Assembly (NCBI RefSeq): GCF_021130785.1
Contig: NC_060214.1
Span: 110,191,001 to 110,255,000, forward strand
Reading direction: 5' to 3'
Source of the DNA: Homalodisca vitripennis
Taxonomy: Eukaryota > Arthropoda > Insecta > Hemiptera > Cicadellidae
Length of the DNA: 64,000 bases
Shown: one piece after another, positions 79 to 35,681 of the stretch
Layout: each line of letters begins with the position of its first letter
Position numbering within the stretch: the first letter of the stretch is position 1
Position numbers and translations under genes: made by a program
Notes under the pieces: model-generated
What the model saw: the letters and a program-made list of their open reading frames with translations, nothing else
Databases searched by the model: none
What the model was told of the DNA's origin: nothing

Positions 79-91
79 ATGGGAGATACAC
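79..91 (+). CDS. caz: caz coding exon 1 (start codon)
   Basis: ATG at 79-81 encodes M-G-D-T plus one base, followed by a consensus donor GTAAGT at 92. The exon contributes 13 nt and ends in phase 1; C91 joins AG of exon 2 to give a Gln codon, and the reading continues Y-S-N-Y-N. Such a short first coding exon before a long intron is common in this family. Bases 1-78 are presumably 5' UTR; the promoter is outside the window. Confidence 0.8.
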
Positions 92-6000: not shown

Positions 6001-9000
6001 GGAAAAACTATGGCTTGTAAAATTTTTTCAAATAGTGTTTTGTGATTGTCTACCCATAGGGAACTCATAATAAAAAAATTAGGCAAATTAAAAAAGTTGA
6101 GCAACAAATTTTATTTTTATTGGGTGATTTGAAATGGATTTGACCCTGGGGCGAAACGATTACAACATTGTTTCGGCGCGCGCGCATGAACTAATTTACA
6201 GTCAGCGGCCGCACGAACAGCAATGGTGCGCCACAGTAACGCTCGCTATCGTATATTAGAAAATTCAGCTGTGAAGGTATTCGTTCAGATGGAACATGGG
6301 CCTGCTGGGGTGTCCGTGATGTAGGAACGATAACACGCAAGCAAGGTTCCAGGGTGGCAGGGATGATGTCTGAATCACAGTCTAAAGCGGCTGGGGCGAA
6401 ACGATTACAACATCCGGGCCATTGTCTAGACTAAACCCGCCAACATGTACGTCTGCGTCTTTTCGTTGTGTCACTAACCTCAAAAGTATTATAATAACAA
6501 CTGAGGAAAACACCCAATCAGAAGCGCTAAAAGCAGAGAGTAAACTCATATGCATGATTTTTCAACTTCAACATACAACTGCGATCTATAGGATATTTAT
6601 AAAACTTTTGAAAAACTCTAAACTTAGACCATTGTTAAGTACTCTTAGTTGACAAGTGAAGACGATCGCCCGATCTATCAGACATTAAAGGAACTATTTG
6701 GAGGGAAATTTGGTACTTTGGGAGGTACTTTGGGATTATACCGACCACACCCAGACATGAATCGTTATTTGACATTTTGCTTCTACTGATTACTAGATTA
6801 GCGTAGAACAACATTTCGTCAATATAAAACAGGAATTGTCTTATCGCAAACCCCTCCCCATCCTCAGACAGAGGTCAAAGTCGAGCGGTCTAGTAGATAA
6901 CGTGATTGCAGAGTCTCGCCGCCCGTTCAGCTGGTGCGTCGCTTTGTTGTACTTCCGTGTTTTAGCTCTACATTTCTCCAAACACAAAACTTCAATAAAA
7001 ACAAACATTACCAAACTAAAACTAAACTCTTTATTGAAAAAAGAACACTCAAAACTTGTGTTTATTCTTGATCACACTCCGCCACCCAAAATGCGAGTGC
7101 CTCAGGCTGAAGGTGCTCCGAAGCCCGCGCTGATGTCGACGAAAGAAAAACATCCCTCGAGATAGTACCTATCAGTAAAATATCAAATTCTAGAGGGGCT
7201 GATCAGAAATATAAATTGAATTGTAATGGAAAGGCAATTATGTACCGTGTAAATCATGTGATGCCGCGTGGCCTGCCGTAATCGGGATTCTCGAGAAAGA
7301 TAAGATAACAGCGACAACAATACCGATCACAATACCTGGAAATGCTTGTAATTTTGTAATTAAAGAGTTGTTTTTTCCTTCTATCATGTTTTGTTTCTAT
7401 AAATTTATATTTTCGTGTTCTTTATACTGGTGTGGACCACACCAGTATGAAGAACACAAAAATATTAATTTATAGAAACAAACATAAACAACTCTTTAAT
7501 TACAAACTTGTAACGATTATCAATATTGTTAATGGGGTCAGATTCCGTTATATGCCCCCAACGCTTAAACTTTTTTCAATGAACTTAGAACGTTATAAAA
7601 CGATGTAGTTAAGTAACAGAACTAACATTCCATCAATCAACAAGCATTTCCAGGTATTTTGATCGGTATTGTTGTCGCTGTTATCTTATCTTTCTCGAGA
7701 ATCCCATCACATGATTATTTAAGTTTTAATCTAGTAAAGCATGGTACATAATTGCCTTTCCATTACAATTCAATTTATATTTCTGATCAGCCCCTCTAGA
7801 ATTTGATATTTTACTGATAGGTACTATCTCGAGGGATGTTTTTTTTTTTTTTTTTTTTTTTTTTACATCAGCACGGGCTTCGGCAGCACCTTCGGCCGGA
7901 GGCACTTGCATTTTGGATGGCGGAGTGTGATCAAGAATAAAAACAAGTTTTGTGTGTTTTTTTCAATAAAGAGTTTTGTTTTTTGAATTTTTATGTTTTG
8001 AGAAATGTAGGGGTAAAACACGGAAGTACAACAAAGCGACGCACCAGCTGAACGGGGCGGCGAGACTCTGCAATCACGTTTTATATTGACGAAATATTGC
8101 TCTACGCTAATCTAGTAATCAGTAGAAGCAAAATGTCAAATAACGATTCATGTCTGGGTGTGGTCGGTATTATCCCAAAGTACCGGAAATTTAAAAGCAA
8201 ACCGCTTTTGCGACCTGAGCTCGTCAGTGATCCGCAATGGGTTAATAGCCTACTAACATCAACAATGAAGATTATAGTTCAATGCCAAATTATCACTAAT
8301 GCTTAAGTTAGATTACATATATAATTTCAGTATTTTAAGAAGTGGCCACCTTTTATTGTTCAGTTTTGGAGCCTCTAAAGTAAATTCTGAGGATTACCTA
8401 TTCTATTATGACATCTGTTACCATTATGTATAAAGATTTTTTTGCCTGTTTTTTTCTTAATGTGGCTCATAAAAAATCAGGGCATCACATAAGAATGAAT
8501 AGTGTGTTGATTTTTATATAAGAATGTTGCGTCAAAATAAAAAACAAAGTGAGCACAATCATAATGAAATTCTTACATGTTACGGCAACGCGTGTAGACT
8601 AATAAAGTAAGCTATGGACAGTTTTAGATGCAAACTCAGTGAAGCCTGTTACATGATGACATGTGGTGTACTCCTACCTTATAGGTTTTATATCACCTAT
8701 TTAAAAAGATTAACAAGGTTTTACTCTAAAGTCTTAACCTCTACTAATCATCTGTTCTGAACTACTAATTATTGCTCAGTACTAAGCAGTGCAGGCTTAC
8801 ATTACATCTTGCAGAACATTGTGATACTACTAATCATCTGTTCTGAACTACTAATTATTGCTCATTACTAAACAGTGCAGGCTTACATTACATCTTGCAG
8901 AACATTGTGATACTACTAATCATCTGTTCTGAACTACTAATTATTGCTCAGTACTAAACAGTGCAGGCTTACATTACATCTTGTAGAACATTGTGATACT

Positions 9001-12000
9001 AAAGGTCTTTGGTGACGAATAAATTATGTTTGGCAATCAACATAAACGGTCGTCAAAATATTAGACAGGTGAAAAAAGACAATTACTTATTACATTTCTT
9101 TTGCATTGAAATGTGAACATCTGTGGTCACTAGGATAGTCTGGAGTCCTCCCTTAAGACAATGGTCCAGCTCATACATCTGATCGTACTCAACATTCCTA
9201 TGTAAAGTATTTCATAAAACTACTTCATCAGCTCCTCTGCACTGCTGAGTTGTCGTGGTTTGTAAATGTTCATAATTTTGATTTCTCATCCAACACTTCC
9301 ATTAGTTTTTGCATGCAAGCTTCGGATGTAAGCATAGTTTGTTTTGGGTCTGTTTTAATTGAAAGCATAGTCTAGTGTCCTCCTGATCAAGATGTCCTAA
9401 CTTGAAGAGTGGTGATTTACAGAGTATTCAAACTACAATGCTGGTGCAGGGGGAGGTGGAGGCTATGGAGGATACGGGGGTGGAGGTGCTGGTGGGGGAG
9501 GAGGATACGGTCAGGGAAGTTACGACCAGGGCGGTGCCAATAACTATACCCAGCCTCCCCCACAGTCGGGCTGGACTGGGCAACAAGGCTACGGTGCTGC
9601 CAGTGGTGGCGGCAACGAAGCTTACAGCCAAGCTCAGAAAGGCAAGTTGAGGAAATCATTTTGGCATTTAGTTGTTGGCATAATCCACTTGAAGAAATGC
9701 ATATAACTTATAATGGAGCAAACTATGATTAATGAAAAGAAAATTGACATTTTTGTTTAAGTGTGGATGTTATTTTAATTCCTTTGTATGCTAGGATATT
9801 GTTGGTAGGTCTAAATCAAAAAGTGTAATCTTAAACACTTAAGCAAATGAAGTAAGAAAGTATAAGATCATTTTGGCAACCTCCTACAGCAGTCGATGTC
9901 TAGTCGTCAGTTGCATACTGGTCCAGCTAAATCTAAACAGATTTTACAAATTGCAGTTCTGGACACTTAAGCTATTTTTTATTGAGTGTATTCCAAAACT
10001 ATTTTTTGTGTTATACATTTTTAACGAACGGGGTATAGATTTAATCTGCTACATTTGAACCTGCTTGTATCTAATTAAATGCAGATGGATATATGATATA
10101 GATAAATTTGAACATTACACATTACCCAATTGCGCATGGCCTTGGTCGTTTCAATGTGTACTGTCAATATACCAATCAGCTCCATTTGTCTGTAGTGTAT
10201 CGTGTTTGCTTCTCATGCTAACTTAACATTTTGGTTATATGCATTCGCTTATCTTTAGGTGCTGTAATTACAATGTAGCCTGTTCTTCTGTTTGGCTTAT
10301 TGTATTTTTAAAGTATGTATTTATTAGTTTAACAACCTGTTTGCTAGGTAAGATGGCAGAAATCAAGTGATAGCCTAATTGTTATGTAAGTTATTATTTA
10401 CTAAGTCAGTTTGTAGTATGAAAAGTGTTAGGCTTCCCTTTATTTAGATTTGTTTCCAAATTTATAAATATTTTGTATGGTTTTGTAAATTTTGAGGTAT
10501 TTGCAGGATGGAAAAATAAGAATTGAATGTTTTAGTTATAATGAATTATGTGATAAATAATGCAATAAAACAATAAATGCAATTAGTTCAGATTAGCTTA
10601 TTAGAGCGGTTTATTAAGACCTTTAGTGAATTTATTACGTATTTCTTGTTTATATTAACTGGTGTAAAGACAAGAATTATATAGTACATTTATTTACATT
10701 TGTTGCATTCCTTTGACTTGCATAAGCTTTTAATGGAACATCAATAAGTAAAATTATAACAAATTAAAAAAAAAAATGTTTATTGGCTTTTATTACAACT
10801 TCAGTTTAACAATAAAAATCTGTTAAGTGAGTGTACTAAGTGTATAGATATTGAATTCTTTGCTTAATCACAGTCCATATAAAATATTGCAGCATAGAAT
10901 GTGGATTATATAAACCTGGCTATCGTACTACAAATTCCCACATAGGTTATAAAGTATTTGAATAGATGTTCCTTCTTTAGCTCAAAGTTTGGTATTCTTG
11001 TTTACGCATAGAAACATTGAGATAAAATATTGATGTCAATTAAGCTGAAATAGTGGTGTAATCATATTACTTAGAAGCCAGATAACTCTGAAATATGAGG
11101 TTGTTTGCATATATGACTAATAAAGTATTCTCACACCAGCTCCGCAAGCCATTACTTTACCATTGTATCTATTACGCTTCAACTATTTAAACGGCATAAG
11201 AGTTGGAAATATGTCAATTTCCAACATATTATATCACTCATGCTTTGTCATACTTCAAATAAAGTTGACAGATGAATACTATTCAATGGCCTTCATAAAA
11301 GAAAACCGTAGAGAATTGTGTAGGCTATTAGCTGTTTCTATAATCGTGAAACTTACAGTTGACCGTTAATTTAGGATTGGTGAAAATCAGTTGATGTTAA
11401 CCCTTTTAACTCCAGTGTCCGTATTGTAAGGATATCGTAAAAATGGTGTCAACTCCTGACTTCCGTATAGTGCGGACGTGCACTTATTATTTTACTGGTC
11501 ACCTGTTGTACCAACTGCTTGGAAACTCCACAGACTTGTGTACAAAGATGTATTGCATCGAAATATATTAGTTTGTAGAGCTTTGACTTCATATTTTGTC
11601 AGTTTGTGATTGAGAAATATATGTGTTGCTATACGGTTTTAATCATCAAAGTTGAAATTTTAAAATTTGAATTTATAATACATGTAAATATTTAAACAAG
11701 TAATTTTCAAGATGTGGTAAGTTTTTTCATGTGTCTGTAAAGTACATTTAACAAGAAGTAAAACAAAACAAAATAATTAGCATGATAACTTAAACAATAG
11801 CTTAGCTATGAAAGAAAAATTTGTTATGCCATTCCTATCCTAAACGAGAAAACTGGTATGTCCACGTTGGTTAATAGGCATCTTTTAGTACTCATAATTT
11901 TAAAATACTGTTACGTGTACACTCAAATTTATGTTATTTACTACTATAAATGGGGAGAACTATGAGAATTTAAATGTTTTCCAGATATTTTGCCATTACA

Positions 12001-15000
12001 TGTATTGATTGATAAAAAACAGTGTTTTTAACAGGTTTGGTTAAATTGTGTTCCAGGAGCTTACCAATATGACCAAGGAGGCCAGCCTAACTATTCCCAG
12101 CCTCCACCTGCCAGTGGTGGCGGTGGCACAGCCAATAGTGGCTATGGCAGCCAAGGAGGCTATAACAGTGGCAATGGGGGATACAGCAATCAGGGTGGGG
12201 GTGGTTACGGTGGCGGAGGTTACAATCAAGGAGGCGGCAGCGGTAGTTACAACCAAGGCGGTGGTGTAGTGGTGGGGGCTACAACCAAGGTGGCGGTGGC
12301 TATGGCAGTCAAGGAGGTGGGGGAGGCTACAATCAAGGAGGAGGTGGTGGTGGAGGCTATGGAGGTACGTTCAACATAAAACACAAGTATGAGTGTTTTA
12401 ACTTAATTAAGTAATACGTAAATCACTTTTTACATTGTAAACTTATTGTATACAATACTATTTATTGTTTAATATGATGCAATGAAGATGTTATTAGGCG
12501 ATACTTTTTAGTCAGAGCATATAATATAATGTTTTTAATTGAATATTTTGTTTGCAGGAGGTGGTGGCTATGAAGGAGGTCGTGGAGGTGGCGGCGGCGG
12601 CGGATATAAGTAAGTTACAAATAGCCTAACTAATACTTATCATAACCATACATTACTTGTAAACTACAGAATATTGTCTTTCTGTATTTTACAAGATTTA
12701 AATCCATGTTTACCTAGTCTAATTAAAAACAAAGAGTGTCGTTAAATAAGTACTATAGTTCCACTTACCGTTTTTAAGAAGGTTATGGTATCCCACAATA
12801 AATGTAAAGTTCTCATTTATGGATCTGGGAAAAAATCTGAGAATCCCATCACTATGTTGACAAATGTGTTTGTAAAAAACGTAATTTAAAAAAAAAAAAA
12901 CAAACAGACTTTGGAAGATTGCTTCTTTTTTTAAACTCTATTTTGATACTTTCTGTTGCAACTTTCTTTGGATCTTTTTCTGGATAAAAATCCTATTTTC
13001 AGTCATGTTTGATGGTTTTAGTGGTATGGTTGTTACTTAATACATGATCACTAATGCAATGACATTATATGGAGGTATTCTGTATTCGTTAGTCTCGCTC
13101 TTATTTGTGGATGGGTTGCAACAATTCCGGTCTAGATGTATGGTCGGTTTTTGTGTGTAATGGTACAAGAAGTAGCAACTATAAGTCATATTGTAGGTTG
13201 AGTTGGATTGTGGTGGTTTGGTGTTTTAAGGAGTGTGCACACTGATGGTGAAAAGGTATGTAGGTTGGTATTGTTACTTATAAATTATGATGAGTATGAT
13301 GTGATAAGATGTTATTACTATTAAGTTGGTTAGTAGAAACTGGTGACACACAAGGGTTGTTCTATAAGAATGTTTAAAATTAACTGTGTAATTTCACTTC
13401 CTTAACAAACCATAAATTTTCTGCCATAAAATTGTGGCTCTGGACAGTTTGCTCCCCTAAATGATATGCTTCCGCAGCTGTGACAAATGTACTGCAGTGG
13501 GAAAGCAGTAAATAAAACTAAACCGAGGTAATAAAAACTTAGGATCATGAATGTGATCATGACTACTTTCTAAGCAACAAGGTTCAAGGAATTCCAAGAT
13601 AGTATCTTATTAGCAATTTTAAGGTGTTTTGATAGTTTTCCCTTAATTTATTTTACAAAGACTGCAATCAATTTGTGTAATCATATATTTTAGGGTAGTC
13701 TATTGATTTTTAGAAAAGGTAAAATAATTGCAACATATTTTTCTTCGTACATCAAACAACAACATGCTTTTGAAAAGTGCTAAACTAACTTTAATACTCA
13801 AGCATTATGTTAATTTATTTCTGAGAGTTCGCTTAATTTTCTAGACTATTATTATAAGCCATCCTGAAAGTCTTCAATGTTTTGGTATTTTTAACAACGA
13901 AACCGAGTGAGTACTAAGGTGTATTAGGGAGATGTGGTCCAAAAATGACATTATCTAACTTCATTGTGTGTCGTTGAGGTTCTGCTTGTTGTATGTATAG
14001 CAAAAATTAAGTTGGTGAGACAATAAAAAAAGTTGGCTCAAGTTATCAGTTGTTGGATGGTGTGACCTAAAGGTCGCTTCTGCGTTGCAACACTGCCGAT
14101 GTACCTATTTGTACTTTTAAATTAGTAACGTCCTTTTACTTCAAACGTAATGTAATTTAACTGATAAAAGTCAATCTGGCCTTGAAAATCTGTTCTTAAT
14201 TATCTTTTGACTAATTGTTTATTCAACTATCTTTGCACAGTCAGCTGTTAGGTCACTGTTCGATTCAGATATGTCCAGGCTTTTAACTCAATTACTTATA
14301 GGACACGTAATTGCAGGTTAGGCTATACATTTATTAAATATTGTTATTTCATGTCTGATTAAAATATGTCTTATTGCGATTGAATTTAGTGGAGTACTTA
14401 CAGTTTTGTGAAATATTAACTTAGTTGTCAGAGCAAACCACCAGTTTGTTAACAAACTGTAATAGTTACACTCTCTTTTTACTTTATTCCTTTTCCCCAC
14501 GGACAATGTTGATATTTGCAGAATTTAGCAGAGTTAGGAGGTTGTTATGGATTGTCATGATAGTTGACAAACAAGGTTTCTTTTCACCTAAATCTCTTCA
14601 AATTCGTGTCTTCATTCAGCATCGTAGTGAGATTGGCGTAACCCTTTTCAATCCATTAAAATCCCATACTGATTTTCTTCACATCTGATTTCAATGCATG
14701 TAAAATGCAATACATGTACTCGCCAACCTACTGCTTCTCTCCTCTTTCAACAATAAACTAATTTGTAATCTTTGTCTATATTTAAACTATATTACATATT
14801 TACAAAGATATGTATGTGTGACATACAAGGTCCTATTGTCTGACATTTTAGAGCGGCAAACCATAAGTTGACAAAGGATTAAATAAAATGTTATGTGATT
14901 AAATAAAAATCGTAACATTATGGTTAAAAATGCCAATAGTTTGAGAAAATAGAAACCATGTTTGCAATGTAGTGGTGGAATAACTAAATACACAGGAAAT

Positions 15001-18000
15001 CAGAGGGCCCTACAGAGGATTGGAAAGGGTTAATAATGTTATCTAGATATCTCTTTATGTTTTGGAAATGGTTTCATATTTATTTTTCAATTATTAGTGA
15101 GTATGTAATAAAAAAAAACGTCATTCTTGTCATACATTTTTTTATTTTTTAAGATGGTTGTTCTGATCAGGTTTTTCCAATTCCTTTTATTTTTATCGTA
15201 TCCAGTTCAAATCTTAAACTTATCTATTATATTCAATTTTTTATCATTGATCGTTTTGGAGATGGGATAATTATAAGCTATTGTAAAAGTTATTCAGTGT
15301 TATTTATTATCTTTGATAATAATATATAATGTTCAGCTCTAGTTTTATATTTGAAGAGTTTGATCAGTGTTTAATATGAATTAAACAGGCTGCAATAATA
15401 GCCTTGGTATGAACTCCAGTTTTTATTCTATCTCCAAACTGTGATCAATTATTATAGAATAGTGAGTTTTGGTAGTATTAAATCATATGGATTTCATTTT
15501 AAAAACATTTACTTTAGGTGTGTGAACTATAGTGATGTGTTGGTTGCTTTTTTGTAATTTACAAAGTTTTTGTATTTTTCAGTTTGTTCAAAAAATTGTT
15601 TCAGTTCTGAGTAGTTTTCTCTCATGTATAAAATAAATATAATTTCAATTTTTCTTATATATCTCAAGGGCAAAAAACCTGTGAGGTAATAAAGTCAACT
15701 CAGTTATAAATATCTTATTTTGATGCAAATTATTTATGTATATTTCCCATACTATAATAGAATATGAAATGGTAAACCGGAGTTGAGATTTCATGTAGAA
15801 AGTACAAATTGCATATTTTAATTAGAAAATTCCAGAACTGGTAACAATATTTTGATTAATTGAGAATTAGTGTTCCAAAGGACCTTCCATGTTGTTTAAT
15901 TGTTTTCTGACGATCTGATTAGACAGTATTAGAAACCAACACATCATTAGTACTGACAAAATTTAAGTAAATGTCCAAAGTATAACAAAATAAAAAAAAG
16001 TATTTGCATATAAAATTAAAATAATTATTAACTAATACCAAAGTAATAAAAATTAAAATACATACAATTTATCTATATAATGAACTTGTTTATGATATAC
16101 AATTAACTGTATAAAGTAATTACAATACACAATAAAACCAGTCCATTTTTCGATCTCAGTGAGACAGCAAATCAAAGCATATGTAACAATCTTGTTAAAT
16201 ATTCCTTATATAATCAATTGTATTTTAATGATGAATATATTAAGGATAATTATGGTAAGAATAAAATACAAAATAAACATTCAACTTGTAACCTTCTCAA
16301 CTTATATTTCGTACGTAATATCCTCCCATTAAACAATTACCTCATCAAATTGGTAATATAATATTTCTCCCATTTACAAGATATACTTTTGTATTGTGAA
16401 GATTTTTGCTCAAAATAACTTATAAATTTAAGCAATATAACTGTCATTAAATAAATTGATTTTAAGGATAAAGTACAGCTTTCTTCCCAGTTCAACTAAA
16501 TAATAATTTGTTCTCTCCAAAAATTAACCAAATCGTTGGTATAAATACATTTTTTGTTTGTTCGCACACCGCAATTGGATAGAATAGTGTATTTAATTTG
16601 TAGACCATTTGCATTTCACTTTCTGCACTATATTGATTGGTTGAATTTGATATTTTATTAACTCGTAAAATTGAGTAATATGTGCTGTTTTTGAAGTGTT
16701 TATACAGGTACAAGGGTTTAAGAATTTTTCTGGTATCATACATTGTAGATCAATGGTAAGAAGGATTAGGCAATGTCCCTGATAATGGGTATGTTTTCTT
16801 GTTAAATTTAAAAACTATATGAAGTTGAAAGGTTTAGATGTGGTAAAATTTTAAAAAGGTGAACTTTACTGAAGAGTTTGGTACAGTTATTAACTTTATG
16901 GGGTCAGACAAATTTTTTGTGTTCATATTTGTAACAAGGTAACTGTAATTTAGTGGTTTAATAAGAGGACGAACATTTGAGTTTTGTGCCATAAGGGAGG
17001 TAATTTGTGGTATAAAAAAATCATTAAAAGGTATAAAATATAGGATTTAAAGTTTTTTTAATAATTTTTGGTACACTTTGAAGTTGGTCGGGACTTAGGG
17101 TGATGGGATTTAGGGTGGGCTAGTCTAGATTGGTTGTGAAGATGGAATGCAGCTCTACGCAGTCTGCTACAAGCCTGGTCTTCCGGTTCATGCGTCCACT
17201 GATACATTTGTATTCTGTTTTAGCAGTGGATCCAGGGGTGGTTTTAACAAAGGTAAATGCACCAGCAGAAATGTCTGGTGCTTATTTCTGTACTTTTGGT
17301 TTTAGTTGTTATTCGTTGGTAAATGTAAACTCTATGAATGGGAGACTTCTTTGTTGGTATTTCTAGCTGAAGATTTAAGTGGCCAACAGTTATCTTTAGC
17401 CACTAGAGTAATATACTTACTACAAAGTTACTATTAAGATTATAGTTGACACGTCATTGCTTGAACTAGAAAATAAGAACAATTAGTTATTAAGCATATC
17501 ATTGGTGTCATATCTACTGTGTACATGATACTATGGTCCAGGTCAACGAGATAAAAAATAATCTGCAGACATAAAATACATAAGCACTTAGCTCCCCAAA
17601 CTTATTGTGTTGAAGCATCTAAGTATGGTTTACGGCTGGGAGTGCCTAAACACTAAGGCTACCCAAATTGGTTTATTATTGAAATTATCTAACACTGTAT
17701 CACAAGACTGGTAATGTACGAACAATGGATCGTAGCCGTGCTAAATGAACGCTTTAAGGATGCACGCTCAGACACTGCTTTGTTCAATTGCTACTTGTAA
17801 GTTTAAGAGATTAAAACACAGAGTGAGCATGTAAGGTAACAAATACAGCTAATAAATCAGTTAGGTCAAAGTATGATTAATAAATGAAAGGTATTTTCCC
17901 AGCTTATTTGAAGCTTTTTCTTAAATTTGTGTTGGTTACAATCGATTGATTGGTTCGGAAGATGCAGTTCTTTTTTTAAGTTACGCAGGTAAAATTTGAT

Positions 18001-21000: not shown

Positions 21001-24000
21001 TTCCCTCGTAATGTGTAGGGAATTTGTTTTTTTTTTTTTTTTATTGCAAATATTGGTCTAGTACTTTCTAGTAGTTGGTTTTTTCTTTTTTTCAACATGT
21101 TACATTTGTTTGGTTATAGGAGGCGGTGGTGGCTTCGGAGGCGGCCGGGGTGGTGACGACTTCATAGTGCAGGAAGATACTGTCTTTGTCTCCGGCATGT
21201 CTCAGAACACGTCTGAAGATATGATTCAGCAACATTTCGGCTCCATTGGTATCATCAAGGTGAGTGGTATTGTATCGTCCACTGAAAATATTCATGGCGA
21301 CAAAAGCTCCTATTGTATGCTATATACAGTAAAATTTTATCTCGGTTATTTTGAAAATGCGTAAAAACGTAATCCAGTGAGAAATCAGATGTTTAGATCC
21401 AAAATTAATCTTACTGCAGCTGTCAGTCACTATGTGAAGAAGACATTTCTGAGTACATAACTATTTGAAAAGAAACTTCTTTGCACTGTTTGGTTAGCTT
21501 CAACAAACCGTCTTTTTTTATAGAAAAGTTAAATAAATATCTAGAATAAACTAAATGGTTTGTATTTACTACTGGCACTGGCTGTAGTTAAAACTTTGAT
21601 AATTTCATTGCTGTTTCCAGTACAATACTATCATGAAATGCTTTGCTTTATTAAGAGATATTCTTACCCGCTAACAGCATTTCATTTTTTACAAAGATTA
21701 GGGTGTTAACACATTTCACTGCAGATGACAAAATTACTGGCGACAGAAAATGCAGGATTTTTTTTATTTACCCAAAACTGAGTCAGGATAGCCGAAATGG
21801 TTGTCCAAGGTATCCCGGAAGCTTTGTTGGCCGGAACTGGTGACATCATGTCCGTGCCTAGTCTGCTCGTCATCCGCACCGGGTGCCGTTTCACCGTGTT
21901 GTATGTGCTCGCAGCGCACTAGGTTTCGGCACAAACACTCGCGAATTACACGTATATAGTACATGAATGACACATAGATAGTACATCAATTACACGTATT
22001 GGGGTGGGGTGGGGGACACCTTCACCGTCCCTAGAACTGTTCGAACTCGATTCATTGTCTTCATCAGATGAAAAATTATCGTCTTCCTCCATTATGAGTA
22101 CATACACTTATACAGTCAACAGACACTATAATCCACTCACACAATATCGCAAAGCATACACAACAAACGAAAATTGCGAACCGGCGACAAATCGCACCAA
22201 CTGACTCACCGAAACAGGCACACCTCGCTATGAGTGTTACAGCCTTCCCGGGCAACTGCTCAGCTCACACTGAGGCAATATGAAAGCAGCTGCCGTATGC
22301 CGAGCTCGCTTGTCCACCACCCGGCACGCCATTTTCGCATGACGAGCATGCTCGTCACCCGCAGTGAATGTGTTATCTAAAGTTAGGTTGTCGCCATTAA
22401 GTTCACGAATGGTGCATTCTAATGTGGATATATTTTTGAAAAAAATAGTTTTTATTTGCACGTACACTGAAAGCCCAAAGAAATTATCAATGATTGACAT
22501 AATATCACAATTCGGTCTCATTCAAAGTATTCCTGTCTCACAGTTGTTGTTCTATTGCAGACTGACAAGCGCACTGGCAAGCCCAAGATTTGGATGTACA
22601 ACGACAAAGCAACAGGTAGGCCCAAGGGTGAGGCCACTGTTACCTATGATGATGCAAATGCTGCCAAATCCGCCATCGATTGGTTTGATGGTAAGTGATG
22701 GTCCGTGCTTGTATGTGATTTTGGTTAACCCTTTGCACGCCAGCCTATTTTCCAAAAGTACTACCCAGAAACGCCAAGGGCATTTTCAGCAGTTTTGCAA
22801 GCTTTCACAAAATGTATCATAACTTTTTTATTTTTGAACAGATATTGATGATTTCTTTACCATTATTTTGCTTATGAAAAGCCCGTGTTCAGTTGGTAAA
22901 TTTTAGTTGCATAAAAGTAATTTAAACTTATAAAAAAAATGAAAAGATTAGGAAAAAAAAACTATTTTCAAAAAAGTTTTTTTTTAGCACAAACAAGTGG
23001 TATTAAAAAATATTTTTGCTGATTTCCTGTTATATCCTAGTCAACTATATCTACCCCTTAACCTAATTACAAAATTTCAAAAGCCTATCTTAAATAGAAG
23101 TCCAGTTGTGATTTTTTTCACTAAATGTGATACGGGCACAGTTTTTGTAAGTTGCATGAACGTTGTATGTAATGTTATACTATATTCACAAATCAATATT
23201 TGACACTATACTAAAATAAATCGGTACTTGGGATTATACCGACCACACCAGTATGAAGAACACAAAAATATCAATTTATAGAAACAAACATGATACAACG
23301 AAAAAACAACTCTTTAATTACAAAATTTCAAACTTACAACGATTATCAATTGTTAATGGGGTCAGATTCCGTTATATGCCCCCAACGCTTAAACTTTTTT
23401 CAATAAACTTAGAACGTTATAAAACGATGTAGTTGAGTAACAGAACTAACATTCCATCAATCAACAAGCATTTCCAGGTATTGTGATCGGTATTGTCGCT
23501 GTTATCTTATTTTTCTCGAGGATCACGATTACGGCAGGCCGCGCGACATGATTATATAAGTTTTTTGCACGGTACATAATTGCCTTTCCATTACAATTCA
23601 ATTTATATTTCTGATCAGCCCCTCTAGAATTTGATATTTTACTGATAGGTACTATCTCAAGGGATGTTTTTCTTTCGTTGACATCAGCGCGGGCTTCGGC
23701 AGCACCTTCGATCGGAGGCACTCGCATTTTGGGTAGCGGAGTGTGATCTAGAAAAAAAAAGTTTTGTGCGTTTTTTTTTTTAATAAAGAGTTTTTGTTTG
23801 ATTTGTTGAATTTTTGTGTTTGGAGAAATGTTGGGGTAAAACACGGAAGTACAACAAAGCGACGCACCAGCTGAACGGGTGGCGAGACTATGCAATCACG
23901 TCTGAGGATGGGGAGGGGTTTGCGATAAGACAATTCCTGTTTTATACTGACGAAATATTGTTCTATGCTAATCTAGTTATCAGTAGAAGCTAAATGTCAA

Positions 24001-27000
24001 ATAACGATTCATGTCTGGGTGTGGTCGGTATAATTCCAAAGTACCAATAAATCTAATAAAAGGGGCATAATAAAAATGCCCTAGCAACAATAGTAATGAG
24101 AGAAATACAAACGTAAACAACGCACAGCAACACGAACGTAACCTCACTCTCGACCAAACAATCCAACAGCTGCGAAGCTCAAATACGACCAAACAAACAG
24201 TCCATAAAGGAATAAACAACTTTGTGGTTTCAAAGCAACTAATCGACCATCGATTAGTCAAAATTTTGCGGCAATCAGATGAATTATAAGAAAATTACAG
24301 GCGAAAAACGTGACGTACCTATATTACGGCCGTTGGCGATTTTCAGTTGAGTAGCCGACGGCCGTAATATAGGTACGTTGGCGTGCAAAGGGTTAATTGA
24401 AATCCAGACAATTTTTCAAACTCTTGTTTTTTGTTTTAAGTTATTTAAATTTAATACAAATCATGATATGGTCATATTTTAATTCTTAAACCCATTGTTT
24501 TCATAATAGTTAAAACAAAATTCAGTACATTCAGCTTGGAGATATATACATATATGTATGTATGTTAGTACTGGATGTTTATAATTTTGAGTTCATGTGA
24601 GTTTCCACGTGAAAATAAATTCAGATGTTGTCTGTAACAGGAATACATATATTTTTTAATGCTACATATGTGTTGACTGATTTTTCAGGGAAGGAGTTCA
24701 ATGGAAGCACAATTAAAGTCCAAATGGCTACCAAGAGGGACAATTGGATGGGAGGCCGTGGAGGAGGCAGAGGAGGAGGAGGTGGTGGTGGTGGTGGCGG
24801 CGGCGGTGGTGGAGGAGGAGGAGGACCTGGTGGACGGGGCGGGAGAGGGGGAGGTAGAGGCGGTGGCTTCAGAGATGGAGGTGACAGAGGAGATCGTGGA
24901 GGCGGTGGTGGTGGAGGCGGCGGTGGCGGGGGTAAGCTGTTATCAACCATTTAAACATGTGATATTTTTTAATTGAAAAATCAGTTTACATACCAAGAAA
25001 CCTAAGTTCTGATTTTCAGTTGGTAAATAATGCTTTAAGGGTGTCTACTGATTAACAAAAGTCACTGATTTTTTAATGACGTGTCACGGAAGCCACTGAA
25101 ATTTTCTGTCTAAAATATCAGTTTTTATGGCATAATGATTATAACTAGTGATGTTTCGAAGCCAAATCTCGAATCCATCAATTCTTCAACAAAGATTCAA
25201 ATTTGAGAATCGATTTATGCAATTCGGCAATTAAATCTGCAAAGATTCGCCATGTCATTAGTTAACGACTTTATAGGCAATGGTACACAAATTACTGATC
25301 ACTAAAATTGCTTATGCTGCTAATCACTTAAGATACAAATTGGAAAGTGTTTTTGTAAAATGTAATTCTTCAGCCTATACATACATTTCCTAGTTTAATT
25401 CATGAAATATTGCCTTTTAAAGATGTTGATTTATGTACATTACTTTTTTTACCATATCATTTAACATTATTTTTACTAAGAAATGATTTGGATTACCAGA
25501 TCACAGCTGTTTTCAGTCAACTTAGTAAGCTAGTAGAGTAACTTCTATCTTAGTTTATTTAATCCATTTCGTTCAGTTTATTTACCCGGTGACAAACTGT
25601 AAATATATACTATCTTTATGTAAATAATGAGTCATTGAAATATTAACTTCTTCCTAATGAGTAAATTTGTGACATAAGCATAAATAAACATTGTAGTTTT
25701 CTAACAAAAGCAAAGTCATTATTCGTACAAGAAAGGAAGTAATTTTAAATCGCAAGATTATGGGTGAGTTATTTAGTGCACTTAATCAGAAGACCCTTTG
25801 GACATCAGTGCGAGGCTGATACTAACCTAAACTGTCAAGGCCTTTTTTTACACTTTTACAATGCTTAATGTTTAGCTCTATACTGCCCCTAGTTTTTATA
25901 AATTAAATGATTCATTTTCAGGAGCTTTTTTAGATTGGCTATTGATGAGCATAGATTAAAAGTGCATTATGTATATACTTTTGATCATGTATTTGGTAAC
26001 TACTATGAAAAATAATTTTTGTAAAATAAGCGTTTTATGTCCAAAAACTGTAGAAAAGAAACCATTTTATGTATTAGAAATATTTTAAATGCATAAAGTG
26101 GTTACATCTTATATTTATACGAAATTACAGAACATTTTTTTAAAATATAAATTGGCAAGAAATAATTATAATATGCCCAATGTATTAAAAGAGAAAAACA
26201 AAACAGCTGTGTCAAGATCAAAGTGATACCAACTTTAAGATTAACACTTACTTCAAAAGAAAACCAGTCCAGTCCCTTTAAAAGCTTGTAAAATAAGTTA
26301 TAATTAATTTGTTTTTGTAAACAGCTGATCAATGATGTTTTATCCTTAACTTGGTGGTTCGATCAACCAGGTATTAGCGCCCAAAGGGTTAAACACATGC
26401 AAATTTTGATTGGAGACATTTCAGTTTAATGTATAGATTGTGTTTTGACCTAACTTTGTGTTGGTAGGCTTCGGGAGCCGAGAAGGAGACTGGAAGTGCC
26501 CGAACCCTGACTGCAGTAATACCAACTTTGCATGGAGACAATCATGCAATCGCTGTCACACTGATAGGCCCGGTGGTGGCGGAGGCGGCGGCAACGGTGG
26601 AGATGGTATGATTTTAATCTTAGAAGAATTATTTTTGTAGGTGGAAAAACCCATAAAATGTTTTCATATTAATTAATTTTTATCTAAACCCAATACAGTG
26701 TCATTTATTCAACACTGAGATATCTTTTTTATGCATATGTAAAGGATAAAATGGAATAGTTACGGAGTGGTTAGAAATCACTCATGTCAAATACCAAATG
26801 CCTTGCGGGTAAAGGGAATGAGAACATCTTGTTTTGATGAAGTGTGTAGTTCAAAAAAAACATTTTGATACCAGTGACTAAAAATTCGTAAACTGTATCA
26901 TACATCAGATAGAATCACAAATATGCAAGACTTGGATAAACGTTACTGTAATGTACCACTAGGTAGATTTCATTAATTTGGTAAAAAAAAGACTCTGTTG

Positions 27001-28769
27001 TTAGCAGAAAACATTTTGAACCGTAACAATGGACGGGGCAAATGTGAAAAAATCATTCAAAACTAAAAATTTTGAGTAGATTTAGTGTCAACTAAAAATA
27101 TTGAAGATGTGGAAGATTTTTTATCAATGTGATTCTGTTTTTAGGTGGTCGTAGAGGAGGTGGTGGCGGTGGCATGGACAGAGGTCGAGGAGGTGGAGGT
27201 CGTGGCGGCGGCGGATATGGAGGCGGCGGCGGTAGTTTCGGTGGCCGAGGGGGTGGTGGCAGAGGCGGTGGTAGGGGAGGTGGACCAATGAGAGGGTGAG
27301 TATTCAATCTAAATGTTCTATTTTTTTAAATAAATCTTTTTAACAGTGTTTTGTGTTTCCAAGTAGGCTGTTTTAACATCATCTTATTGATCAGATCTTT
27401 TTACCCCTCTATTTGCCTACATATATCAAGACATGTAATTGTCGTGCTTCTAGCAACTGTTAGATTAAATACAGTGGAACCTCGATAAGTCGGATTAATC
27501 GGGACCGCGGCCAATCCAGGATAACGAAAATCCGGGTTAGCCGGAGAATTAGGTAAAAAATAATAAAATACGGTATACTTACAGATAAACTCTATTATAA
27601 TTGTAAAAACGTCAAACATATGCACATTTAATTATTATTAATCCTTACAGTACATTTATAACTGTTCATTTCCTGGTAAAAAATTCAGTCAGCTTTGGTT
27701 GTGCCAATGTCGTCTGCCGCTTGCGTGCTGTGCGATCCCGCAGTCTCTTCAACATGAGCAATTCAGCCGGCGATGTTTCTGCCTGCCGGTAGTGTACAAT
27801 ACAGTACACTACACACACAACACGGGCACAAGCGAGCGGAGCGAGGTAGGAACGGTACTGAGTGGCCAGGCGTGGCGGTAGCCTGGGAGAGGATTTGGGG
27901 AAATACGGGATTGTTTCTGAGAATCCGGGACAATGACCGTCACTCAGCCGCTGTGTGCCATGAGTCACACGCTCACTGTCGTACAGTCCCATCAAATACT
28001 GATGCAACATTGATTCACGGATACTTTACAACTCAAAAATTTACGTTTTTATTATTGAAATGTTTGTCTGATTTTTTATTTTTTAATTGAAAATCGGTCC
28101 GGGTTAGCCGGACTTCCGGGTTAACGGGGACCGACTTATCGGGGTTGTACTGTAATAGTTCATAATAAACTTGTTCCTTCATCACTACCAATAAAAATCA
28201 CTCATTAAAACCAATAATCGGATATGTTGTACGATGAATACATTTTGCAAATTATATATCAGGGGGAAAACCTATTTTTTATTTTTTTTTTTTTTAAATA
28301 GGGAATTTCATCTGAACATAAGCAACAGAAATAATTCCTGTTATGATTATGTTGTTAAATGTAATTTCATAGGTTTGTTGGTTTTAAACATTCTTAAGTT
28401 GTAAATTAATCAATATCCCATAAAATAAATGCTCTGTCTGATTAAACAAATGGAATATGCAGTTTAATCTAGTAATTAAATGGACTACCATATAGAAAAT
28501 TTATTTCGGACAATTTGAGGGCAAAAATTTCTTCAATTTTCAGTACCAATGGAAATGAGAATACCAATCCATTCTTTATTTTATATATACTAAATCAGAA
28601 GTACTATATTAGAATGTAACTAGTTTAAAAAATTGTGAATTGAATGTGGTTTTTCTCCAATAACTGTTGTTGGTATTAAACTGATCTACTTCAAATTGTG
28701 TTGTAGTTCTGAACTGTTGATCTTTGTTGCAGGGATAGGGGAGGTGGCGACAGAAGTAGGCCGTACTAA
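79..28769 (+). CDS. caz: cabeza / FUS-TAF15-EWS family RNA-binding protein (ten coding exons, whole gene)
   Basis: Join: 79-91, 9423-9641, 12057-12364, 12558-12609, 21120-21259, 22561-22690, 24689-24931, 26468-26605, 27145-27295, 28733-28769. This totals 1431 nt, 476 residues plus stop, with all junction phases consistent. Order: G/Y/Q/S/N-rich low-complexity N-terminus (about 1-147), a shifted-frame stretch (148-198), Gly-rich linker, RRM (about 218-303; RNP2-like TVFVSGM, RNP1-like [10 protein letters not shown]), RGG tract, RanBP2-type zinc finger (W377, C379, C384, N388, C395, C398), second RGG tract, C-terminal DRSRPY. FUS-family proteins are nuclear RNA-binding proteins in transcription and splicing; the terminal R-P-Y matches the family's PY-type nuclear import signal. 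Domain order and the motifs IGIIK, KPKIW and TNFAWR identify the family; I infer the insect name caz. Odd points: a GC-AG intron 2 and the exon 3-4 frame problem (see findings). Confidence 0.93.
92..1885 (+). other. caz intron 1, first part, no recognisable feature
   Basis: AT-rich intronic sequence. Short open frames here have neither family resemblance nor splice-consistent continuation. I see no feature I can support before the inverted-repeat element at 1894. Confidence 0.6.
1894..2646. mobile_element. Inverted-repeat DNA element, family A copy 1 (8-bp target duplication)
   Basis: Left end GGTACTTTGGGATTATACCG, continuing ACCACACC; the right end at about 2619-2646 is its reverse complement. 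It is flanked by the perfect duplication GAATTTTG (1886-1893 and 2647-2654). At 753 bp it has no transposase and carries a GC-rich internal palindrome near 2225-2280. Three other insertions of this family occur at 6712, 23223 and 62345. The 8-bp duplication fits hAT, P or Merlin-like superfamilies; the termini do not let me choose. Confidence 0.88.
2655..3050. other. caz intron 1 spacer, nothing recognised
   Basis: AT-rich intronic sequence between two insertions. I see no gene, repeat copy or regulatory signature that I can support. Confidence 0.5.
3299..6146. mobile_element. Long-inverted-repeat (foldback-type) element with a relic gene
   Basis: Arms of roughly 880 bp (about 3299-4180 and 5250-6146) are near-identical inverted copies; termini are GGGTCAA and TTGACCC. 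It is inserted within the first 245-bp unit with an apparent TGGG duplication (3295-3298, 6147-6150), though the exact length is ambiguous because of G runs. The centre carries minus-strand coding remnants (about 4491-5226). The arms are unusually long for a DNA transposon and well conserved, suggesting a recent event or gene conversion between arms. Confidence 0.8.
4491..5226 (-). pseudogene. Relic of a transposon-associated protein inside the long-inverted-repeat element
   Basis: Reading minus strand from about 5226: [47 protein letters not shown], then an in-frame stop, [20 protein letters not shown], and after a frame change [20 protein letters not shown] with [16 protein letters not shown] recall this combination from repetitive uncharacterised proteins in arthropod and cnidarian genomes, usually treated as transposon-derived, but cannot name the family. 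There is at least one stop and one frame change, so it is a broken gene. The ends of the coding region are not visible. Confidence 0.55.
6712..8184. mobile_element. Family A element, head-to-head inverted dimer (8-bp target duplication)
   Basis: The left outer end GGTACTTTGGG (with a short repeated GGTACTTTGGGA) and right outer end CCCAAAGTACC are flanked by perfect GGAAATTT duplications (6704-6711, 8185-8192). Two family A units lie in opposite orientation, joined at the palindrome ACTGGTGTGG-A-CCACACCAGT centred on 7436; both inner termini have lost their outermost bases. The right unit has an extra segment of about 125 bp (about 7506-7640) also found in copy 3 but absent from the left unit. 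A single outer target duplication implies insertion as one unit. Confidence 0.85.
8246..8740. other. caz intron 1 spacer, nothing recognised
   Basis: AT-rich intronic sequence without recognisable gene or repeat termini. Confidence 0.5.
8741..8998. repeat. 86-bp tandem repeat, three copies
   Basis: Three head-to-tail units start at 8741, 8827 and 8913 with CTACTAATCATCTGTTCTGA; they differ by only a few substitutions. The units contain TACTAAC/TACTAAT-like motifs resembling branch points and lie about 420 bases upstream of exon 2. No coding potential is seen. Confidence 0.85.
9423..9641 (+). CDS. caz: caz exon 2, low-complexity N-terminus; GC donor
   Basis: The acceptor is TTTACAG at 9416-9422. 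Phase 1 in, phase 1 out. It encodes a G/Y/Q/S/N-rich prion-like segment with Gly runs, YGQ and QPPPQ. The only donor that keeps the frame is AAAG|GCAAGT, a GC donor at 9642-9643; the next GT at 9646 would shift the frame and meet a stop early in exon 3. Confidence 0.85.
9642..12056 (+). other. caz intron 2 (GC-AG), nothing else recognised
   Basis: The intron runs from the GC donor to the acceptor TTCCAG. It is AT-rich. A TTAACCCTTTTAACTCC sequence at about 11398 resembles a lone TTAA-type transposon end but has no matching partner. Confidence 0.6.
12057..12364 (+). CDS. caz: caz exon 3, G/Y/Q/N-rich segment with internal frame switch
   Basis: The acceptor is TTCCAG before 12057 and the donor GTACGT at 12365. 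Codons 78-147 read as G/Y/Q/N/S repeats ([12 protein letters not shown] type). From about 12266 the continuing frame becomes Val/Ala/Glu-rich, while the Gly/Tyr/Gln repeat continues one base out of register to the end of the exon. Restoring a single G near 12266 would unify the repeat frame. Either the assembly dropped a base in the GGT run or the gene has a compensated frame change. Confidence 0.8.
12558..12609 (+). CDS. caz: caz exon 4, 52-nt exon of uncertain reading frame
   Basis: The acceptor TTTGCAG ends at 12557; the donor GTAAGT starts at 12610. In the assembled frame the exon enters in phase 0 and leaves in phase 1, which is required to enter exon 5 correctly. In the Gly/Tyr frame it reads [17 protein letters not shown] and, without splicing, ends at TAA 12611-12613; spliced, that frame hits TGA early in exon 5. 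Its use therefore depends on whether the exon 3 base count is right. Confidence 0.6.
12610..18989 (+). other. caz intron 4, first part, no recognisable feature
   Basis: Long AT-rich intron with scattered short open frames. None shows family resemblance or conserved-looking composition. A poly(A) run at 18897-18917 immediately precedes the reverse transcriptase fragment. Confidence 0.55.
18990..19990 (+). pseudogene. Decayed non-LTR retrotransposon reverse transcriptase fragment
   Basis: Broken plus-strand frames resemble consecutive RT segments: [20 protein letters not shown], a degraded D-x-x-K-A-x-x-S segment ([20 protein letters not shown]), an internally deleted stretch, GVPQG-like and YADDT-like (now YANDT) residues near 19250-19350, [20 protein letters not shown], and a C-terminal [19 protein letters not shown]. 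There are several stops and frame changes and no endonuclease. It lies in caz intron 4, in the same orientation as the gene. Confidence 0.75.
21120..21259 (+). CDS. caz: caz exon 5, first half of RRM
   Basis: The acceptor TTATAG ends at 21119 and the donor GTGAGT starts at 21260; phase 1 in, phase 0 out. It encodes a Gly-rich linker, then DDFIVQED, the first RRM strand TVFVSGM, helix 1 ([10 protein letters not shown]) and strand 2 (SIGIIK). This is strongly FUS-like. Confidence 0.93.
21710..22372. mobile_element. piggyBac-like short element in caz intron 5
   Basis: Left end CACATTTCACTGCAGATGAC; the right end, reversed, reads CACATTCACTGCGGGTGACG, so the inverted repeats are imperfect (about 20 bp). 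It is flanked by TTAA at 21706-21709 and TTAT at 22373-22376, a TTAA duplication with one change. It contains a short minus-strand frame starting at 22092 with an acidic N-terminus ([20 protein letters not shown]), the composition seen at the start of piggyBac transposases, which stops after about 40 residues. Confidence 0.72.
21964..22092 (-). pseudogene. Truncated piggyBac-transposase-like N-terminus
   Basis: From ATG at 22092-22090 the frame begins [20 protein letters not shown] and reaches a stop near 21964. Acidic Ser/Asp/Glu-rich starts are typical of piggyBac transposases, and the frame lies inside a TTAA-flanked element. It is far too short to encode a transposase; the catalytic region is missing. 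Confidence 0.5.
22561..22690 (+). CDS. caz: caz exon 6, second half of RRM with RNP1
   Basis: The acceptor TATTGCAG ends at 22560 and the donor GTAAGT starts at 22691; phase 0 in, phase 1 out. It encodes [19 protein letters not shown], then [12 protein letters not shown] (RNP1) and helix 2 [12 protein letters not shown]. An internal GTAGGC at 22616 resembles a donor, but the conserved reading continues through it. A TTAA-flanked mobile element begins 38 bases after the exon end. Confidence 0.93.
22729..24392. mobile_element. piggyBac-like element (TTAA) in caz intron 6, hosting a family A insertion
   Basis: Terminal inverted repeats CCCTTTGCACGCCA (22729-22742) and its reverse complement (24379-24392) are flanked by TTAA at 22725-22728 and 24393-24396. 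Near the right end, 24313-24378 forms a hairpin with arms ACGTACCTATATTACGGCCG. There is no transposase. Removing the nested family A copy (23223-24045 plus its duplication) leaves about 0.83 kb, a typical non-autonomous size. Confidence 0.85.
23223..24045. mobile_element. Family A inverted-repeat element, copy 3, nested in a piggyBac-like element
   Basis: Left end GGTACTTGGGATTATACCGA (one T shorter than the family consensus); right end CCAAAGTACC. Perfect 8-bp duplication AATAAATC at 23215-23222 and 24046-24053. It includes the segment of about 125 bp shared with the right half of the dimer at 7436-8184. It is 823 bp and non-coding. Confidence 0.87.
24689..24931 (+). CDS. caz: caz exon 7, end of RRM and first RGG tract
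   Basis: The acceptor TTTTTCAG ends at 24688 and the donor GTAAGC starts at 24932; phase 1 to phase 1. It encodes the last RRM strand ([19 protein letters not shown]), then RGG/Gly repeats including [10 protein letters not shown] and DRGDRGG. RGG boxes in this family bind RNA and are arginine-methylated. Runs of GGN codons make this exon prone to assembly length error, but the phase is consistent. Confidence 0.92.
24932..26467 (+). other. caz intron 7, nothing recognised
   Basis: AT-rich intron. No transposon ends or coding segments that I can support. Confidence 0.55.
26468..26605 (+). CDS. caz: caz exon 8, RanBP2-type zinc finger
   Basis: The acceptor TTGGTAG ends at 26467 and the donor GTATGA starts at 26606; phase 1 to phase 1. 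It encodes [20 protein letters not shown] followed by SCNRC, matching W-x-C-x4-C-x3-N-x6-C-x2-C, the single-stranded-RNA-binding RanBP2-type finger found in FUS, TAF15, EWS and insect caz. A Gly run follows. Confidence 0.94.
26606..27144 (+). other. caz intron 8, nothing recognised
   Basis: Short AT-rich intron between the zinc finger exon and the last RGG exon; no features seen. Confidence 0.6.
27145..27295 (+). CDS. caz: caz exon 9, C-terminal RGG tract
   Basis: The acceptor TTTTTAG ends at 27144 and the donor GTGAGT starts at 27296; phase 1 in, phase 2 out. It encodes [34 protein letters not shown] and GPMRG: the second RGG domain, after the zinc finger as expected for the family. Confidence 0.9.
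27472..28152. mobile_element. pogo/Tigger-like short element in caz intron 9
   Basis: Left end CAGTGGAACCTCGATAAGTC; the reversed right end reads CAGTACAACCCCGATAAGTC. It is flanked by TA at 27470-27471 and 28153-28154. CAGTnnAACC ends with TA duplication are characteristic of the pogo/Tigger branch of Tc1/mariner. The interior keeps a minus-strand frame whose C-terminus, [20 protein letters not shown] followed by LTEFFTRK, resembles the end of pogo-type transposases. At 681 bp it is non-autonomous. Confidence 0.85.
27666..28010 (-). pseudogene. C-terminal remnant of a pogo-like transposase
   Basis: A 114-residue minus-strand frame inside the pogo-like element. Only the last 30 or so residues ([20 protein letters not shown] and the final EFFTRK) look like a transposase tail; no DDE motif is present. 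It is best read as the residue of an internally deleted parent element. Confidence 0.5.
28733..28769 (+). CDS. caz: caz exon 10, C-terminus with PY-type nuclear signal
   Basis: The acceptor TTGTTGCAG ends at 28732; phase 2 in. It encodes [12 protein letters not shown] and stop TAA at 28767-28769. The terminal R-S-R-P-Y corresponds to the PY-type transportin signal at the end of FUS-family proteins. Confidence 0.92.
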
Positions 28770-31148: not shown

Positions 31149-31390
31149 CTATTCATCATGACAATAGCAATCAGTCAAAGCTAGAATAAAAAACTGTTTA
31201 CCATTATTTTATTCATCAGGACAACAGCAATCAGCCAAAGCTAGAATAAAAAACTGTTTACCATTTTATCATCACCAGAACCACTATATTGACAATAGGA
31301 GCCAGCCAAACCCAGCTTAAAAAAACTGCTAACTTTATATTTCTCCAGAACCATTATATTGACAAACAGGTGCCAGAAAACCCCAGAATG
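31149..31390 (+). repeat. Tandem units of about 65 bp in the retrotransposon 5' region
   Basis: Three to four imperfect head-to-tail units share GACAAYAGCAATCAGYCAAA and CTAGAATAAAAAACTGTTTA; the first two are nearly identical and the later two diverge (CCAGAACCAYTATATTGACA). They end right at the ORF1 start. Repeated 5' monomers act as promoters in several non-LTR families; that role here is inference. Confidence 0.75.
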
Positions 31391-32689: not shown

Positions 32690-33495
32690 TACAAATATTA
32701 AAACCAGTAACAGGAAAAAGTAAACAACACAAATTCATCATTGCTCACCAAAACATTGATGGCCTTCAGAACAAAATCGAGAGACTGACACACTTCCTAC
32801 ACAGCTCTAATCCAGACTTAATAATTCTTACAGAACACGGCTTAAGTAGTCAAAAGTTGGAAAACACAAGAATCCCTGGCTACAGTCTACTAGGTGGTTT
32901 TACCAGACAGCAACACCAGAAAGGTGGAGTGGCTGTTTTTGCTAGCTTAAGACTAAAAAACAAGATTACAGTAGTATCAATATCAAGCAATACATCGGAA
33001 CGCATTTGTGAAACGATGCTCCTGAAAATTGAGCTGAGACAAGGATTTTTACAACTGCTAAGCGTCTACAGACCACCCTGCAGCAACTTAGAAAATGCAA
33101 TAGACATTTTATCAGCTGAGCTTGACAAAATTGTAGCCATTAATGACATGGTACTGGTGATGGGGGACGTGAATGTAGACAATCTTATTGAAAGCAATGA
33201 CAGAAGAAACCTGGATGAAATGCTCCTTAGCCATGGCTTGAGCAGACTTCATCTACCCGCAACCAGAATAACAAATCATAGCCAGACCTCTATAGATTTT
33301 ATATGCACGAACATAAAAGAAACGGAAATAGCTACCAAAATAACACAGACAGGCCTCTCAGACCACACGGCCCAACTATGTACGATTCTCACAGATTCTA
33401 CGAAACAGCCACTGACCCAAACAAAAAGAAGACAGTTTAATGCAAGAAACAGTGCAAGAATTGAAGCACAATCTGGAATCCCAAGACTGGACTAA
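32605..33495 (+). pseudogene. Retrotransposon ORF2, N-terminal endonuclease part
   Basis: APE-like endonuclease motifs in order: HQNIDGLQNK near the start, an acidic ILTEHGL, SVYRPPCSN, MGDVNVDN with the catalytic D-x-N, TRITNHSQTSIDFI, and a final GLSDHTAQL, which is the SDH motif. The frame drifts after KRRQFN and ends at a stop at 33493-33495, while the RT frame starts at about 33440. A single-base indel between about 33436 and 33443 separates the two halves of what should be one polyprotein, so ORF2 cannot be made as one protein from this copy unless the indel is an assembly error. Confidence 0.85.
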
Positions 33496-35578: not shown

Positions 35579-35681
35579 TTTACATACACTGACTCATACA
35601 CTGATTGTGACATAAACACTGACCTTTGTTCTATTCTCTAAGAATATGTTCAATAAAGATATATTCTATTCTATTCTAATA

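Follow-up and report, generated by a model that had tools for sequence, protein, structure and literature searches.

The caz gene of Homalodisca vitripennis is probably an ordinary, working gene. Two things together best account for the switch of reading frame in its assembled sequence: a one-base gap in assembled exon 3 (an assembly slip or an allele) and an overlooked 26-nt exon, here called 4b. Judging from the DNA, we regard it as very likely that exon 3 lacks one base and that exons 4 and 4b are both coding. Exon 4b is the probable insect counterpart of the frame-shifting exon 7 of FUS. The gene was analysed in a window of 64,000 nucleotides, by which we mean the whole stretch of DNA under study; the window sits on a contig of more than 110 Mb, and the host genome searched comprised 2.3 Gb.

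The window holds a caz/FUS gene of the hemipteran type, with its coding sequence on the + strand between 79 and 28769. Of the protein matches listed, the best three come from hemipterans (Nezara, Ranatra and Metopolophium). The predicted product has a G/Y/Q-rich head, one RRM, a RanBP2 zinc finger, RGG boxes and the C-terminal end ...RSRPY, and thus displays the feature set of the FET family (caz/FUS/EWS/TAF15), including the C-terminal RPY. The Pfam domains RRM_1 (44.1 bits) and Zn_ribbon_RanBP (28.8 bits) both exceeded their cut-offs. The exon boundaries given by the first-pass annotation hold for exon 3 (12057-12364) and for exon 4 (12558-12609, 52 nt). The intron at 9642-12056 is of the GC-AG type: the donor of exon 2 (9635-9647) reads CAGAAAG/GCAAGT, with GC and not GT. 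With the RRM piece as the query, two matches were found in the host genome, both being the RRM exons of this locus itself; among the 10 candidates scored in that search there was no retrocopy showing the spliced form.

Features of the caz locus, in positions of the window
Feature	Position	Strand	Remarks
caz exon 1, coding part	79..91	+	ATG GGA GAT ACA C, then donor gtaagt
caz exon 2	9423..9641	+	G/Y/Q-rich; GC donor AAAG/GCAAGT at end
caz exon 3	12057..12364	+	G/Y/Q-rich; probably one base short near 12266
frame slip in GGT run	12257..12275	+	assembly error or allele
caz exon 4	12558..12609	+	52 nt, phase 1 to 2; very probably an ordinary coding exon
GC-rich patch	17070..17285	+	highest GC content in the 8.5 kb that separate exons 4 and 5
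caz microexon 4b	17227..17252	+	26 nt, phase 2 to 1; would code (N)GSRGGFNK(G)
hairpin GCACCAG...CTGGTGC	17259..17281	+	7 bp, starts six intron bases past 4b donor; fold of surroundings not significant
caz exon 5	21120..21259	+	phase 1 start; RRM begins here
caz exon 6	22561..22690	+	RRM
caz exon 7	24689..24931	+	RRM end, RGG box
caz exon 8	26468..26605	+	RanBP2-type zinc finger
caz exon 9	27145..27295	+	RGG box
caz exon 10, coding part	28733..28769	+	ends ...DRSRPY-stop

Exon 4b reads, with its flanks, ttttagcag/TGGATCCAGGGGTGGTTTTAACAAAG/gtaaat, and lies within the 8.5 kb that separate exons 4 and 5, after the RGG1 exon and ahead of the first RRM exon, flanked by introns of 4617 and 3867 nt. 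Its entry phase (2) is the phase in which exon 4 ends, and its exit phase (1) is the one in which exon 5 starts. When exons 4 and 4b (78 nt together) were both included in the translation, the native frame stayed open into the RRM and on to the end of the gene. The acceptor is a tandem one, TTTTAGCAG (17218-17226, with the alternative ending at 17223), which gives an exon of 26 or 29 nt; the frame is kept in both, and the longer form carries one additional Ser. The length is of the 3n+2 type with 26 nt, or with 29 nt if the upstream acceptor is used. The segment encoded is of the GS(D)RGGFNKFG type, as seen both in the phmmer alignment and in the intron scans. In the alignment of exons 4-4b-5 with human FUS (5yvg_X), the match runs from GGYEPRGRGGG via GSDRGGFNK into the RRM, the score coming mostly from the RRM. 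Skipping of 4b would shift the frame and lead to a TGA at 21154 in exon 5, with five exon junctions downstream of the stop, and retention of either flanking intron would likewise give a stop, at 12611 or at 17303.

Exon 4b was first spotted by eye, in reading the intron, and was tested against chance afterwards. The scan took in every AG...GT segment of 8-152 nt in these 8.5 kb that was compatible with the frame (n=237), with hand-set splice weights and a reference peptide of FUS picked by the analyst. By splice score alone, 4b ranked third of the 237, and the two candidates above it encode unrelated peptides. When the candidates were scored for likeness to the peptide of FUS exon 7, 4b (together with its 29-nt form) came first, at 34 versus 24 for the next unrelated candidate. 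None of 400 introns simulated with a first-order model reached 34 (maximum, 31), and five control stretches, two of them other introns and three from elsewhere in the window, had peptide scores of 18-26, with 17 for the antisense intron. A simulated intron held on average 0.88 candidates with a splice score as good as that of 4b; it is therefore the peptide, not the splice sites, that carries the test against chance. Compared with the rest of the gene under the same hand-set weights, the acceptor of 4b scored below eight of nine acceptors and its donor below seven of nine donors; these low scores could reflect regulation, or nothing. When ten short Gly-rich pieces were aligned by MAFFT, the exon did not fall in a consistent place, and the alignment was left unused.

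The surroundings of 4b were also examined. The GC peak of the 8.5 kb falls on 4b and just before it: the 12 richest 200-nt intervals printed start at 17055-17110, all include 4b, and have a GC fraction of 0.44-0.475 versus a mean of 0.303. The segment 17080-17380 had a single match in the host genome, in a search that passes over very common words, which counts against a transposon copy. Rfam gave no match at the gathering level over 12000-22000. Viral contigs were scanned for DNA of related insects; six stretches matched a pattern, and none was confirmed.

As the first-pass annotation had noted, the G/Y/Q frame breaks near 12266 in the assembled exon 3, and from there a Val/Ala/Glu-rich frame stays open in the assembly to the end of exon 3, across exon 4 and into exon 5. 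Translation of the assembled path 1-2-3-4-5-...-10 likewise bore out its 476 codons before the stop, with a Val/Ala/Glu-rich middle. A missing base in exon 3 would agree with the G/Y/Q repeat seen on either side of the slip. In the host genome, a 104-base query from exon 3, taken upstream of the slip and not including it, had a single match, and so did 12557-12900; hence there is no second copy by which an assembly error could be told from an allele at the slip. The openness of the Val/Ala/Glu-rich frame has a simple origin. A stop in the +1 frame requires a codon whose last two bases are TA or TG; among the 195 codons tested there was no Leu, no Ile, no Val and one Met. In 2000 synonymous recodings of the native frame, the +1 stop was absent from all 2000 and +2 stops were present in all. 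Because the tested codons are devoid of Leu, Ile and Val, the +1 frame is open automatically; being open by composition alone, it is uninformative. The slip removes one nucleotide and the overlooked exon another 26, a total of 27 or nine codons, and the 476-codon frame is open for that reason. Programmed frameshifting at 12266 was set aside by eye. A +1-frame ORF starting from the ATG at 9438 was also seen to be open across exons 2-4 (9438-12609), on either side of the slip, and to meet the RRM in frame at 21120 if 4b is skipped.

The relatives examined comprised 155 proteins, namely the best 120 of 322 and 35 more from a second listing. Classed by the composition of the sequence that precedes the RRM, 75 were Val/Ala/Glu-rich (here called shifted), 46 were native and Gly-rich and 15 were mixed; 10 were too short, and in nine the RRM start was not found by the pattern used. 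Native Gly-rich isoforms seem to be under-represented in the protein database (101 candidates), and the 75 of 155 is therefore no frequency. It had been proposed earlier that orthologues with the Val/Ala/Glu-rich frame would speak against restoring a base in exon 3. Such a stretch is indeed present in these 75 relatives, but in the two species where a native and a shifted model could be paired, the shifted model consists of the native exons in the +1 frame with 35 nt left out at this site. Database models of this kind usually follow RNA reads and a longest-ORF rule. A segment like that of 4b stands before the RRM in relatives, for example GGRGGYNKGG in Ranatra and GSNRGGFNKG in Chironomus, and a protein search with the microexon segment alone gave four matches at E up to 0.1, two of which were the Chironomus GSNRGGFNKG.

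In eight pairs, we asked whether one DNA sequence can encode the native protein in frame 0 and the shifted protein in frame +1. The Musca domestica caz pair, in which the native record is a caz-phosphatase fusion model, gave a run of 71 residues, and the Trachinotus anak TAF15 pair gave one of 144, each against a maximum of 8 in 50 shuffles. In both shifted forms exactly 35 nt are absent, coding approximately for NGGGNKDSYNKG in Musca and for GGGDRGGYKNYG in Trachinotus. A bird TAF15 pair gave a run of 38 residues with a 35-nt difference. Three mosquito pairs gave runs of 10, 10 and 17 (shuffled maxima of 9, 8 and 10) with differences of 38, 35 and 38 nt, the two runs of 10 being hardly above the shuffles, and the remaining two pairs failed, with runs of only 5 and 4. 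When the pairing was widened, runs of at least 14, a length reached by none of 360 shuffled controls, were seen in 18 pairs; the difference was 35 nt in 12 pairs, 38 nt in one, 8 nt in three and negative in two. The 12 pairs with 35 nt consist of 11 TAF15 and one caz, rest on three native proteins in all, and include only two same-species pairs, Musca caz and Trachinotus TAF15. Human FUS exon 7 is itself 35 nt long. The shifted models of Musca caz and Trachinotus TAF15 are forms without the equivalent of FUS exon 7. This does not hold for every shifted model, since P0021 (Aromia) and P0076 (bird TAF15) keep the exon-7-like segment behind a shifted head, and the assignment of the missing exon leaves out the molluscs, the sea urchin, Daphnia and Folsomia.

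The first-pass annotation had set exon 4 directly before the exon at 21120 and had taken it as either essential or a poison exon. With a 26-nt exon very probably lying between the two, neither view is supported, although the translations behind them are right: in the native frame exon 3 joins exon 5 in phase, a direct junction of exon 4 with exon 5 runs into the early stop at 21154, and read-through past exon 4 ends in GGYK-stop with the TAA at 12611. A normal mRNA joining exon 3 to exon 5, with exon 4 as the piece that brings the stop, would account for these translations, but we consider it very improbable. In the native frame, exon 4 codes for GGYEGGRGG, which aligns with GGYEPRGRGG of human FUS, a segment that lies in FUS exon 6 according to the exon-6 primer given in the part of Zhou et al. 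2013 (PMC3814325) that was available; exon 4b then mends the frame with the next FUS-like segment. Inclusion of a poison exon brings a premature stop into the normal path, whereas the path through exon 4 is open with 4b; as 52 and 26 nt add up to 78 nt and restore the frame, exon 4 reads as ordinary coding sequence. It is harder still to credit that the assembly is correct and that a Val/Ala/Glu-rich protein of 476 codons lacking 4b is the real product. This reading offers a single open frame, but it abandons the G/Y/Q repeat in the middle of an exon and drops the stretches of exons 4 and 4b that resemble FUS, and the openness of its frame is no evidence, since composition alone keeps the +1 frame open and the losses of 1 and 26 nt cancel modulo 3. 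A further alternative protein is conceivable, in which 4b is skipped and translation starts at the ATG at 9438, giving a FET protein with a Val/Ala/Glu-rich head, the RRM in frame and no prion-like domain. From there the +1 frame is open through exons 2-4, on both sides of the slip, and with 4b absent it continues in frame into exon 5, and a similar general form is common among database models (the 75 of 155 relatives, by composition). Against it, the native ATG lies upstream of 9438, +1 openness is automatic, and a longest-ORF rule would choose models with such heads; we judge this protein highly unlikely.

Much nearer to an even choice is a variant of the preferred exon model, in which 4b is real and always included, an unregulated small exon; we would put its chances slightly under one half. 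The weak structure and GGU signals around 4b agree with constitutive inclusion. Folding was not significant, either for 226 nt around 4b (z -1.12, with 30 of 200 shuffles as stable) or for 81 nt (z -1.75, 14 of 200), and the density of GGT, GTGGT, GGTG and TGTG near 4b was unremarkable, 72 of 826 intervals being equally rich in GGU. Regulation is favoured over constitutive inclusion by the models without the same exon recorded in Musca caz and vertebrate TAF15, and by the lowering of cabeza when FUS is overexpressed in fly motoneurons, reported in the portion of a review that was available (PMC7831090), where the exon is not named; this drop fits a shared target. In the preferred exon model, the full-length mRNA would include exons 4 and 4b and yield a FET protein of about 485 residues. 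Under a regulated 4b, part of the transcripts would skip 4b or retain its introns and so meet a premature stop, and the Caz protein might use such skipping or intron retention to limit its own level. Autoregulation of Caz through 4b and its flanking introns, proposed by analogy with human FUS, is a tentative reading, to which we give somewhat less than an even chance.

Several repeats were noted by eye elsewhere in the window. What looks like a long non-LTR retrotransposon occupies 31380-35580, with a Cys/His-rich ORF 1 and an endonuclease/RT-like ORF 2, and appears to be nested inside an element that looks to be of the mariner type. Reverse-transcriptase-like remnants lie at 18980-20150, in the intron between 4b and exon 5, the length of which may be partly transposon-derived. 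Several repeat copies, some inverted or nested and ending approximately in gtactttgggattataccgaccacacc, occur at 1890-8200 and 23220-24050.

In ALS, the control of the FUS level through exon 7 and introns 6 and 7 is disturbed. Should insect caz possess this frame-shifting exon too, the loop could be tested on a native gene in flies and other insects. For the databases, an exon skip with +1 reading, shown for two species, is a possible origin of the Val/Ala/Glu-rich heads in many caz and TAF15 isoforms, and such isoforms should not be accepted as real protein variants without proof.

The regulation of human FUS provides the closest known system. The accessible sections of Zhou et al. 2013 (PMC3814325) report that FUS protein binds exon 7 and introns 6 and 7 and represses exon 7, and that skipping of exon 7 shifts the frame, giving a stop in exon 8 and NMD. 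The primers in those sections translate to SGGYEPRG for exon 6 and cover DQGSRHD for exon 8, which places FUS exon 7 on or around GGSDRGGFNK. In mouse data, as given in the part of Humphrey et al. 2020 (PMC7337901) at hand, skipping of exon 7 was not seen and introns 6 and 7 were retained. Ancient unproductive splicing has been described for SR genes (PMC4379411), in a text whose available portion does not name FUS, TAF15 or cabeza, and the accessible part of PMC6162566 mentions cabeza and shows no caz exon. Among the papers listed as matches, judged by title and the opening of the abstract, none dealt with an insect or other invertebrate counterpart of FUS exon 7. The likeness to FUS autoregulation drawn in the earlier annotation was right in its direction but fell on the wrong exon: the counterpart would be 4b, whose skipping, rather than the inclusion of exon 4, would be unproductive.

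With exon 7 of human and mouse FUS, 4b shares its site, which follows the first RGG segment and precedes the RRM. Insofar as the published excerpts allow the comparison, the peptide GS(D)RGGFNK and the long flanking introns are found at 4b as well, and skipping leads to a stop in the next exon, as is predicted for 4b. A difference lies in size, 4b having 26 (or 29) nt and the skipped piece of Musca caz and fish TAF15 having 35 nt. In FUS the exon 6 donor and the exon 8 acceptor are weak, according to the available part of a 2025 paper (PMC12285722); the donor of caz exon 4 is likewise the second weakest of the nine besides 4b (2.33), whereas the acceptor of caz exon 5 is not weak (4.95). The TAF15 exon coding GGGDRGG(Y/F)KNYG resembles 4b in being a frame-shifting 3n+2 piece at the same place, and database models without that exon are recorded; it differs in belonging to a vertebrate paralogue, in its 35 nt and in having RGGYKNYG in place of RGGFNK. 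Poison exons of splicing factors such as RBM39 are alike in that unproductive splicing lowers the level of an RNA-binding protein, but their inclusion stops the frame, whereas 4b would stop it when omitted. It may be, with a likelihood a little short of even, that a 3n+2 cassette exon already stood here in the FET gene from which those of insects and vertebrates descend, and that both have kept it as a control by unproductive splicing, shrunk to 26 nt in the present gene; on that reading, held just as cautiously, the exon 7 switch of FUS would not be a vertebrate invention.
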